Notes under the pieces: generated by a model
Seen by the model: only the letters and a program-made list of their open reading frames with translations
The model's database searches: none
What the model was told of the DNA's origin: nothing
In this document: piece after piece, positions 28,155 through 59,589 of the stretch
Layout: the number at the start of each line of letters is the position of its first letter
Position numbering within the stretch: position 1 is the stretch's first letter
Position numbers and translations under genes: made by a program
Assembly (NCBI RefSeq): GCF_002159335.1
Contig: NZ_NFHP01000002.1
Coordinates: 62,001 to 126,000 of the forward strand
Length of the DNA stretch: 64,000 nt
Source: Collinsella sp. An7
GTDB lineage: Bacteria; Actinomycetota; Coriobacteriia; Coriobacteriales; Coriobacteriaceae
Direction of reading: 5' to 3'

Positions 28155-29441
28155 CTAGCAGAGCGCGTTGATGGGCGCGACGAGCACACCAGAGGGCAAC
28201 CGATACATAAAGTCGGTCTTCCCAACGAGCACCAGCATAAAGCTCGGTTCGGGATTTCGAGCCGCGGGGTTGTTGGCTATCTTCCTCTTGAGGCGCAACA
28301 GGTTGCCCTCGGCGTCCGCCGCTTTGTTGGCCCCCAGCTTGATTTCAATGGCGCCCCATCTCCCGTCGCGGAGCTCGATGATTGCGTCGACTTCCAGCCC
28401 ATCGGAATCGCGGTAGTAGTGAAGAGCATCCGGACCCGCCTCCGGCATGGCCTCAACGTACACGCGCAGATCGCGCAAGCAGAGCTCCTCAAACAGCTGA
28501 CCCATGAGCTGAAGATTCCCCAAGAGTCGCTCAGGCGCGGCACCGAGGAGAGATGCTGCCAACGACGGATCCGCAAAGCAGCGTTTGGGCTTGACGCGCA
28601 GGCGCTGCGGGGACTTGATGGGGGCATCCCATCCCGTCAGGTCGCATAGAACATAGCGGTTCTCTAAATAATCGATGATGGCGCTCACATTGCGCTCGCT
28701 CGCATCCCGATGCTCCACGTCGACGGGCAAGCCCATATCTGCGGCAATGGTCTGAAGCTTCGCCGCACTTCCGATGTTGCGCGCCAGCGACCTCAAGCAG
28801 GAGCGAAGACTCCGTTCAGAGGCGGGAGCCTTGTCGTCATCTTTTGCGAGCAACGCCTCGAGGTATTGATCTGGCACCAGAAGCGCCGCGGAATCATCGA
28901 GGTCGCGCGCCGCCGGCCAACCACCCCGGCAGATCCAGCGCGCTATATCCAGCAAGTCGGTCGACGTCGAGCCACTTTCGAATTCTCCGTCGAAAAGCCG
29001 GGCGAGTGAAATCCGCCCGGTCGATAACCCGAGCTCCGCAAGGCTCATGGGCCACATGCGCACGCGCGAGATCCTGCCGGACCCCGTATGGTGCGTTTTG
29101 CCCCGAGCGGGACGAGAAGAGCCCGTCAGGATGAACAGGCCGCGCTCGCCCGCTGCGTCATCAACCTTGTTGCGAACGGCATCCCAAACAGCAGGCACTT
29201 CCTGCCATTCATCGATAATATGCGGACTATCCCCGTCGAGCACCGCCTGAACATCGAGCTCGGCGAGAGCCCGAGCCTGGTCATTGTCGAACGACACGCG
29301 GCTACTGCCATGGGCCATGGCGGTCCACGTCTTGCCCGACCACATCGTGCCCGTAATTTCCACCGCACCAAAAGCACGGAGGTGCCGGTCAACGACTTCG
29401 TCGATGTAACGGGGAAGGTAGCCGTTCTTCTTGAGCGTCAC
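28155..29441 (-). CDS. AAA-type ATPase with C-terminal DUF4143
   Basis: 428 residues. N-terminal ATPase: a P-loop GTMWSGKT at 31-38, Walker B IIDEWQ at 75-80 and sensor FILTGSS near 105. C-terminal DUF4143 region with EVDAII followed by GAIEIKLG, a pattern resembling PD-(D/E)XK nuclease folds. Such proteins are widespread, often isolated and of unknown role; some are thought to belong to defence or toxin-like systems. Codon use is less GC-biased than its neighbours, hinting at transfer. GTG start at 29441 has only a weak ribosome site. A striking tandem-repeat array lies 50 bp upstream. Confidence 0.85.
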   Translation of the reverse strand: MTLKKNGYLPRYIDEVVDRHLRAFGAVEITGTMWSGKTWTAMAHGSSRVSFDNDQARALAELDVQAVLDGDSPHIIDEWQEVPAVWDAVRNKVDDAAGERGLFILTGSSRPARGKTHHTGSGRISRVRMWPMSLAELGLSTGRISLARLFDGEFESGSTSTDLLDIARWICRGGWPAARDLDDSAALLVPDQYLEALLAKDDDKAPASERSLRSCLRSLARNIGSAAKLQTIAADMGLPVDVEHRDASERNVSAIIDYLENRYVLCDLTGWDAPIKSPQRLRVKPKRCFADPSLAASLLGAAPERLLGNLQLMGQLFEELCLRDLRVYVEAMPEAGPDALHYYRDSDGLEVDAIIELRDGRWGAIEIKLGANKAADAEGNLLRLKRKIANNPAARNPEPSFMLVLVGKTDFMYRLPSGVLVAPINALC

Positions 29442-29490
29442 GAGATCATCGCCCTAGCCGCATGTTTTAGCAGGTACAGCGCAATTATAC

Positions 29491-29623
29491 CGCGAATATC
29501 GGACTGAATCTCCCGTAATTATTGAAGTGATTCCCCGTAAATATTGGATTGAAGTTCCCGTAATCATTGGATTGAGATACCCGAAAATATCGAATTGGAA
29601 CCCCGTAAATATCGATTTCAACC
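29491..29623. repeat. Tandem 23-bp repeat array upstream of the DUF4143 gene
   Basis: Six degenerate head-to-tail units: 29491-29513, 29514-29536, 29537-29559, 29560-29582, 29583-29604 and a partial 29605-29623. On the minus strand the unit reads about tcaatccaatatttacggga. The block is AT-rich in a GC-rich genome. The 23-bp period is about two helical turns, so protein dimers could bind on one face. It starts 50 bp before the ATPase start codon, where a promoter would be expected. Confidence 0.8.
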
Positions 29624-30647: not shown

Positions 30648-31067
30648 TGCGCTCTCCTTTCGTCTGCGCCCGTGCAGCACGGGCAATCACCAGCGTCTAT
30701 TCTATGCCAGGCAACCGGCGCCAACTGGGCCAAAATGGGCGTACCAGCGCAAAGGCCCGTCGTTCCCGCCGCGCTTCGCCCCCCGAGGCCCCTTTTTCTG
30801 GGCCGAGGAGCCCTCTCGCTAAAACTCGATGCCCGATGTGAGTGTATCTTTTGGGATGTGCGAGTAGCACTGCAGCATGCTAAAGCGCTTTCCTGCGGAA
30901 ACGATGGCGCTCGGGTCATCAAAATGGGGTGCTACCGGAGGTTCCCAAAAGATACACTCACATCCGGGGTCGAGTTTTTTGCAGAGCGAAAACCGTGGCC
31001 AGAGGAGCCTCAAACAGCCCTGCGGGACGGCTCCAGCCCCGGTGCGCCGTCTCCCGCCGCGTCGCTC
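30648..31067. other. Gap between lacC and the aldolase gene, containing a palindromic element
   Basis: 420 bp without a credible gene. It contains the inverted-repeat element at 30821-30979 and otherwise GC-rich sequence without recognisable signals. Confidence 0.5.
30821..30979. repeat. MITE-like inverted repeat element (about 159 bp)
   Basis: Terminal arms of about 33 bp, 30821-30855 and 30943-30979, are inverted copies with a few changes (core tgtgagtgtatcttttggga). Inside, agtagcac (30863-30870) faces gtgctac (30930-30936), giving a second nested stem. No coding capacity. The ends carry AAAA/TTTT. Confidence 0.7.
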
Positions 31068-32003: not shown

Positions 32004-32073
32004 GGGTCCTCCTTGAAGCAGGCCAAACGTGGCCTTATTGTAACCCCCGCGGGGACGGTATGCGCGGGGCGGG

Positions 32074-32190
32074 CGCCGCGTCGCAACACCTCGCGGCTGG
32101 ACGAGCGCCCCGTTGCCAGGCCCCGCAACAGGCCGCGCGGCGCGTCGCAGCACCCCGCGGCTGGGCGGGCGTCCCGTACAACGTCCCGCA
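32074..32190. repeat. Imperfect direct repeat between lacB and lacC
   Basis: Two copies of about 50-55 bp beginning near 32074 and 32136, sharing gcgtcgca-r-cacc-y-cgcggctgg and then a cccgt...cccgca segment. The copies are 62 bp apart. No frame or hairpin of note. Confidence 0.55.
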
Positions 32191-32203
32191 GCAGCGCCGC
32201 CCC

Positions 32204-44795: not shown

Positions 44796-45672
44796 CGTCG
44801 TCATCTCCCTCCACGCCAGCAGAGACAGCCGCAACGGGAGCGTTCTGATGCTGCTGATAGTAGATGTAGGCCAGAGCGAAGCCGATGAGAGCGACCGTCA
44901 GCATGGACAGGCTCTTGAAGTTGCCACCGGTGATGGTGGTCTCCGTGGCACCGGCGATGGTCGCCACGTCGCCACCGATGGTCACGATGCTCGTGAAGGC
45001 GGTGCCAAGGAGGGCGGCGATCACGAAGCCGAGGATCAGGTAGGCGATGTGCTTCTTAACGGGCAGGTAGCGGAGCAGGATGGCGAAGCCCACGGCCGGA
45101 AGCATAGCGCCGGCGAGGGTCAGGCCGTTGCCCAGCCACGCGAAGTCGCCGTTGAGGGCCGCGGTGATGGCCTCGACGAGCGGCTGGCCGAATGCGAGGG
45201 CCAGGAACACGGGGACCATACGGGAGAGGCACCAGGAGACGGCACCCATCCAGTAATGGAAGTTGTAGGCGTTCCAGTTCATCTTCTCGATATCGGCGTC
45301 GCAGGCGTGACCCCAGAAGGTGTTGGCCATACGACCGAGGATGTCGGTGTAGACGAGGATGGCGGCCACCGGCACGCCGAGGGCGGCGAGCGCCTGCTCG
45401 GGGTCCATGCCGGAGCTCACGGCAAACGCCGTGGCGATCAGGGTACCGGAGTTGGCGTCGATACGGGACGCGCCACCGAAGGTGCCCACACCCAGGATGG
45501 TGAGCTGCATGCTACCACCGATGAAGAGACCCGTTGCCATGTCGCCCATGATGAGGCCGGTGATGAAACCGGAGAACACGGCGGAACCCGCGCTGGAGTA
45601 CCAGCCGAGCTCGTCCATGATCTGGAAGCCTGCATATGCCGTGAGCAAAATGATTTGCCACCAAGCAATCAT
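44785..45672 (-). CDS. PTS mannose-family IIC component
   Basis: 295 residues, about eight membrane segments. MIAWWQIILLTAYAGFQIMDELGWYS, GLFIGGSMQLTILGVGTFGGASRIDANSGT and GPTS-like AFAVSSGMDPEQALAALGVPVA are ManY/AgaC family motifs. It forms the sugar channel with IID. A Met start at 45672 follows aaggagg. IIB lies upstream with a 120-bp gap. Confidence 0.94.
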   Translation of the reverse strand: MIAWWQIILLTAYAGFQIMDELGWYSSAGSAVFSGFITGLIMGDMATGLFIGGSMQLTILGVGTFGGASRIDANSGTLIATAFAVSSGMDPEQALAALGVPVAAILVYTDILGRMANTFWGHACDADIEKMNWNAYNFHYWMGAVSWCLSRMVPVFLALAFGQPLVEAITAALNGDFAWLGNGLTLAGAMLPAVGFAILLRYLPVKKHIAYLILGFVIAALLGTAFTSIVTIGGDVATIAGATETTITGGNFKSLSMLTVALIGFALAYIYYQQHQNAPVAAVSAGVEGDDDDEL

Positions 45673-59413: not shown

Positions 59414-59484
59414 GGAGCCGTTCGGCGCCCATCTGCCGTGCCCGCATCCCACGGCGCGCGCCCAAGGGACCCGCGCTCCCCGCG

Positions 59485-59536
59485 CCCACCCAACGCCCCG
59501 CGCGCCCGGGCCCACCCAACGCCCCGCGCGCCCGGG
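59485..59536. repeat. Perfect 26-bp tandem duplication
   Basis: Two identical head-to-tail copies of a 26-bp unit starting cccacccaacgccccg (59485-59510, 59511-59536), with a partial third before them. Located 50 bp before the FKBP gene. Confidence 0.7.
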
Positions 59537-59589
59537 CCCACGCCTGCGGTATAGTAATCGGCGACCATTCCGCACGTACAAGGAGCAAG

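Follow-up and report, generated by a model that had tools for sequence, protein, structure and literature searches.

A 23-bp tandem array in front of a DUF4143 ATPase gene

We analysed a 64,000-nucleotide stretch of contig NZ_NFHP01000002.1 of Collinsella sp. An7 (the window), in which a gene for an AAA_14-DUF4143 ATPase is preceded by AT-rich tandem repeats. The features of the locus are as follows.

29597..29619, minus strand: array unit 1 (gene-distal), GAAATCGATATTTACGGGGTTCC
29575..29597, minus strand: array unit 2, CAATTCGATATTTTCGGGTATCT
29552..29574, minus strand: array unit 3, CAATCCAATGATTACGGGAACTT
29529..29551, minus strand: array unit 4, CAATCCAATATTTACGGGGAATC
29507..29529, minus strand: array unit 5, CACTTCAATAATTACGGGAGATT
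29484..29506, minus strand: array unit 6 (gene-proximal), CAGTCCGATATTCGCGGTATAAT, terminating in the probable -10
29484..29489, minus strand: probable -10 hexamer TATAAT of the ATPase promoter (from the sequence; promoter predicted)
28155..29441, minus strand: AAA_14-DUF4143 ATPase, PDC-S01 group (candidate), 428 aa, GTG start at 29441
28962..29441, minus strand: ATPase domain (approximately residues 1-160; Walker A around K36, Walker B D76-E77), from Pfam, conservation and the AlphaFold2 model
28578..28820, minus strand: predicted winged helix-turn-helix (residues 208-288), from the AlphaFold2 model
28662..28712, minus strand: predicted recognition helix (residues 244-260; the strongest covariation with the repeat unit is at 251 and 255), from the model and covariation
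28335..28517, minus strand: PD-(D/E)XK-like nuclease core in DUF4143 (residues 309-369), from Pfam, conservation and the model

Unit-by-unit fitting resolved six contiguous head-to-tail units of 22-23 bp each on the minus strand, running from 29619 to 29484 with steps of 22, 23, 23, 22 and 23 bp and a six-unit consensus of CAATCCAATATTTACGGGGAnnT. TRF independently reported a period-23 array at 29495-29612 (5.2 copies, 70% matches, score 89), and an autocorrelation score gave a best lag of 23 with a value of 25, a level reached by 0 of 2,000 dinucleotide shuffles (maximum, 15). Together, these analyses confirm the six AT-rich units described in an earlier note made from the letters alone, which had also singled out their base composition, rightly so: the array has a GC content of 0.38 compared to 0.66 for the whole window, where only 0.16% of 136-bp stretches are equally AT-rich. 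Its placement before the ATPase gene likewise held, but the limits shifted from 29491-29623 to 29484-29619; the period proved to be 22-23 bp, which is 2.1-2.2 helical turns and not exactly the two that had been suggested.

Elsewhere in the window, a best lag of 22-24 occurred only in two overlapping stretches (44821-45090, period 24, score 14), and the array core was not found again in the rest of the genome when at most one mismatch was allowed. The window also contains two GC-rich tandem repeats, at 32073-32200 (period 64, 2 copies) and at 59470-59541 (period 26, 2.7 copies, 93% matches). A CRISPR-like or spacer array was ruled out, as the degenerate 22-23-bp units are contiguous and have no spacers between them. 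The repeats adjoin or overlap the predicted promoter of their own gene: in the window, a perfect -10 hexamer lies inside the last unit, 43 bp ahead of the GTG start, while the -35 is poor (2/6 match, at 17 bp).

Domains and classification of the encoded ATPase

The protein matched both DUF4143 (E = 1e-27) and AAA_14 (E = 1.3e-11) above the Pfam cut-offs, and the PADLOC PDC-S01 model PDLC04790 aligned to residues 7-389 with E = 2.5e-56. An AlphaFold2 model (mean pLDDT 94, lower in the wing loop) comprised an ATPase domain, a winged helix, assigned from the helix-strand order of the model, and a PD-(D/E)XK-like domain. Residues K36 and D76 of the ATPase and E317, D351, E365 and K367 of the nuclease core are conserved in homologues. 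Because both motifs are conserved, self-regulation is probably not the only function of the protein.

Sequence searches of solved structures gave no convincing homologue. Structural comparison of the model retrieved 2qen (PABY2304, Z 13.9), 2fna (SSO1545, Z 12.8) and CED-4 (Z about 12), with the nucleotide-binding and winged-helix parts of these and related NLR ATPases aligning over approximately 250 residues (Z 12-14) at approximately 14% identity and the DUF4143 nuclease part left unaligned. STAND/AP ATPases are a class known to oligomerize. Nothing on cognate DNA arrays was seen here for SSO1545, PABY2304 or the CED-4/NLR ATPases.

The source preprint of PDC-S01 is said to be that of Payne et al. 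from 2024. The group consists of an ATPase fused to a nuclease assigned to the PD-(D/E)XK type, and it is reported to rank fourth by frequency among prokaryotic defences; most such defence candidates, PDC-S01 among them, still await experimental validation (PMC12988326). The window protein shares the PADLOC profile match and the ATPase-PD-(D/E)XK-type fusion with the published group (PMC12988326), which makes it a candidate defence gene of PDC-S01 on the strength of its sequence.

Period and position are conserved across homologues

We searched 297 genomes of the same order, 170 of which had a homologue, and, in the 180 bp before each start codon, recorded which lag from 15 to 40 bp gave the strongest self-match. 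Among the 115 homologues with upstream DNA, the lag was 23 in 99 and 22 in 13 (112 of 115 in total), while the same lag test on the coding sequences of these genes gave scattered values. We also assembled a cross-phylum set of 80 homologues by profile search, with one genome per species and a few members shared with the same-order set; according to record titles, it spans Actinomycetota, Bacillota, Bacteroidota, Spirochaetota, Synergistota, Saccharibacteria and Methanomassiliicoccales archaea. An exact 23-bp lag was found in 77 of these 80 homologues. At a fixed threshold, 71 of the 80 target upstream regions were positive, as opposed to 7 of 2,705 other stretches of the same loci. The earlier note had made its proposal depend on the array recurring near homologues, which it does, both within the order and across phyla. 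One of the seven positive non-target stretches was a second copy of a gene's own array just downstream of that gene (L193:5470-5570), so that array copies flank the gene; no second ATPase gene followed this downstream copy.

Across 178 arrays, the step between units was 23 bp in 450 cases, 22 bp in 59 and 24 bp in 2. Most arrays had 3-5 units, with at least three copies in 173 of the 178, and copy number was unequal between the relatives L059 and L060. A -10-like hexamer was found in 107 of the 178 arrays at a median of 3 bp from the array end; -35 elements upstream of these genes were weak, yet slightly better than shuffled background.

Unit sequences are private and track the predicted recognition helix

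The array is a family trait with a conserved period and position but a variable unit sequence. Units of different homologues are unlike one another (CTCGAAAAT, CTCTATTTTG, CTACATTTTCGG, TCGGAAAATC, GCGTAAAAT, GTCCAACTC and many more), and unit similarity stays flat at 0.41 for proteins less than 45% identical, rising to 0.68 above 80% identity. Geometry is thus common to the family and the letters are private, since the period persists where unit similarity falls to 0.41. The idea that homologues would share the same unit was therefore not borne out, each homologue group having a unit of its own. This extends to paralogues within the genome of the window, where the window array and that of L031 are clearly different and the window unit was not found at other genes. 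Among the genomes with a clear outcome, units occurred only in their own promoter in G000, G290 and G159, as they did in G085 and G200 at 0-1 mismatch, while a unit pattern taken from other genomes gave scattered weak matches in G014. In five arrays (L101, L132, L125, L081 and L046), the central tract reads GGAAAAT in some units and GGATTTT in others inside one array with constant flanks, which might reflect contact in the minor groove or a bend at this tract; by a simple count, in-register swaps from AAAA to TTTT were few (2 of 178 arrays).

We next compared unit similarity with residue identity over pairs among 102 non-redundant proteins, with overall protein identity removed. The best sliding 13-residue window was 243-255 (partial r 0.26), compared to a best value of 0.10 outside the winged helix, and residues 251 and 255, which are separated by one turn of the recognition helix, ranked first and second of all columns. 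The mean over this helix exceeded 200 of 200 permutations, and it beat all permutations again when the own-order subset and the cross-phylum subset were each analysed alone, although in the cross-phylum subset single columns elsewhere ranked above the helix columns. Hypergeometric enrichment in the non-redundant set was modest (P about 0.01-0.05), and phylogeny was only roughly controlled in all of these statistics. Overall, no other segment of the protein tracks unit similarity as well as the predicted recognition helix. The proposed tie between the array and the DUF4143 ATPase thus gains credibility, as homologues keep the array and its unit appears to follow the predicted DNA-reading helix.

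Array and gene behave as a single mobile cassette

At the site between fba and pyk where the window gene resides, the insert is absent from three congeneric genomes and the DNA in others is different (L443-L451), marking this intergenic region as a variable insertion spot. For 84 pairs of homologues, median identity was 0.64 within the array, 0.46 from the array to the start codon and 0.39 in the DNA upstream, where homology between relatives drops to roughly background level, and in several pairs homology starts at the array (for example, 0.43 then 0.97 in L055/L065). Because homology between relatives begins there, the array forms the front end of the cassette. An imperfect inverted repeat upstream of fba (30821-30978; arms of approximately 35 bp, ACTCGATGCCCGATGTGAGTGTATCTTTTGGGA ... 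TCCCAAAAGATACACTCACATCCGGGGTCGAGT) may be a MITE-like element.

The trait did not extend to all DUF4143 genes. Among matches to PDLC04789, the best lag was 23 bp in 13 of 29, leaving about half without the array, and the PDLC04787 branch had no 23-bp arrays. Instead, a promoter inverted repeat exceeded all shuffles in 8 of 13 PDLC04789 matches without an array and was present in 13 of 28 members of the PDLC04787 branch, whereas inverted-repeat arms in array-family promoters were at background level. Long promoter inverted repeats were seen in array-less upstream regions of L222-L281, as in L227 (AAAATCGGGAGT-agc-ACTCCCGATTTT), L248 and L231.

Three-unit patterns matched many viral contigs, but phage-borne versions of the array were rejected, as the repeats in question are different and often palindromic (TCGGAAAAA-TCCGA or CGCCAAA). 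Only 6 of 161 viral loci had an ATPase homologue, which equals the number fetched by protein search, and plasmid and phage records yielded few homologues, mostly distant. The viral contigs (L285-L404 and L405-L436) carry short-period TCGGAAAAAAATCCGA-like or CGCCAAA-like units, often palindromic, followed by AATACNAATAC-like repeats; these may be origin iterons located in replication genes, with no relation to the ATPase.

A probable autoregulatory operator

We consider it probable that the repeats serve as a cognate autoregulatory operator array, to which the PDC-S01 ATPase would bind and so most likely hold its own expression low until a trigger arrives. This reading follows from a promoter-overlapping site that is private to its gene and whose sequence appears to follow the encoded reading helix. 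The winged helix would read one 22-23-bp unit per protomer, and protomers would align head to tail along the row of 3-6 units, which extends into the promoter of the gene. The constant spacing of the direct repeats suggests a single protomer on each unit, all stacked in the same direction. We infer direct binding, possibly cooperative, through which the bound array would control how much ATPase-nuclease is made, most likely keeping the amount low (negative autoregulation) until infection or some other trigger removes the protein from the array or alters its nucleotide state; any link to defence is putative. Array and gene move as a self-contained cassette, the unit of each lineage having diverged with its own reading helix. 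The inverted repeats often seen in other PDC-S01 branches are in line with an operator that a differently arranged protein reads.

The weak -35 elements also fit activation, in which the ATPase would act as its own activator, the proximal unit replacing the -35 and the promoter switching all or none once protein suffices. The array indeed runs upstream from the -10, mostly without a good -35, a layout typical of activator sites; we nevertheless regard this as unlikely, given -35 matches slightly above shuffled background, sister-branch inverted repeats that resemble simple repressor operators and the negative autoregulation of the AbiE defence system (PMC7319586). Alternatively, the array could be a docking or assembly platform that loads a head-to-tail ATPase oligomer on its own gene and keeps the nuclease inactive or stored, with transcription control as a by-product. 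Direct repeats at a constant 22-23-bp spacing in at least three copies, the STAND/AP-ATPase-like fold of an oligomerizing class and the conserved ATPase and nuclease motifs are all compatible with such a platform, but the array always lies at the promoter and sister branches manage with a single inverted repeat, making this account rather doubtful. With similar reserve, we can imagine that a large branch of this widespread candidate immune gene pairs a STAND-like ATPase-nuclease with a private array whose constant 22-23-bp spacing loads it on its own promoter as an ordered head-to-tail oligomer; the array would serve as a sensor or safety dock, so that displacement would both raise expression and free the nuclease. 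As a matter of arithmetic and not of evidence, a step of 23 bp corresponds to 2.19 turns, or a rotation of approximately 69 degrees between successive protomers, which would roughly match an AAA+ spiral of five to six members.

Binding by some other host regulator of defence genes would suit the promoter position alone; it is very unlikely considering that units differ between paralogues of one genome (the window and L031), occur only at their own gene and follow the encoded recognition helix. Least probable is a non-functional, microsatellite-like expansion or the end of a mobile element, despite a mobile cassette and a copy number that varies between relatives (L059 and L060). A fixed 22-23-bp period combined with freely changing sequence at almost every homologue in two domains, together with an array better conserved than its flanking DNA, requires selection.

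Comparison with known systems and significance

The literature that we found on PDC-S01 covers the protein only and does not mention an upstream array, and a search of work on DUF4143, PDC-S01 and 23-bp repeats, with bioRxiv preprints outside its scope, gave no description of one. Several systems nonetheless resemble it in part. Iteron and Pho-box operators are tandem direct repeats approximately two helical turns apart that are bound by a regulator or by the product of the adjacent gene. They share tandem direct repeats and similar spacing with the window array, which by contrast is not a replication origin, has no shared regulon and has a unit sequence private to each locus. The closest tested parallel is AbiEi/Rv2827c of the type IV toxin-antitoxin AbiE, which combines a winged helix with 23-bp promoter repeats: AbiEi, a phage-defence protein, binds these repeats, autoregulates and leaves non-cognate promoters unbound (PMC7319586). 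The likeness is one of description, as AbiE has inverted repeat pairs and an antitoxin of a two-gene system, whereas here 3-6 direct repeats precede a single-gene ATPase-nuclease. An AbiEi-type operator of paired inverted 23-bp repeats was accordingly rejected for the window, whose units are direct repeats.

No trigger or control of PDC-S01 was described in the literature that we found. A cognate array present family-wide would offer a ligand for purification, a measurable footprint and reporters with which to search for the trigger, and the approximately 178 natural protein-site pairs would provide material for learning the recognition code. The cis-element also separates branches of PDC-S01, with a direct array in one and an inverted repeat in others.
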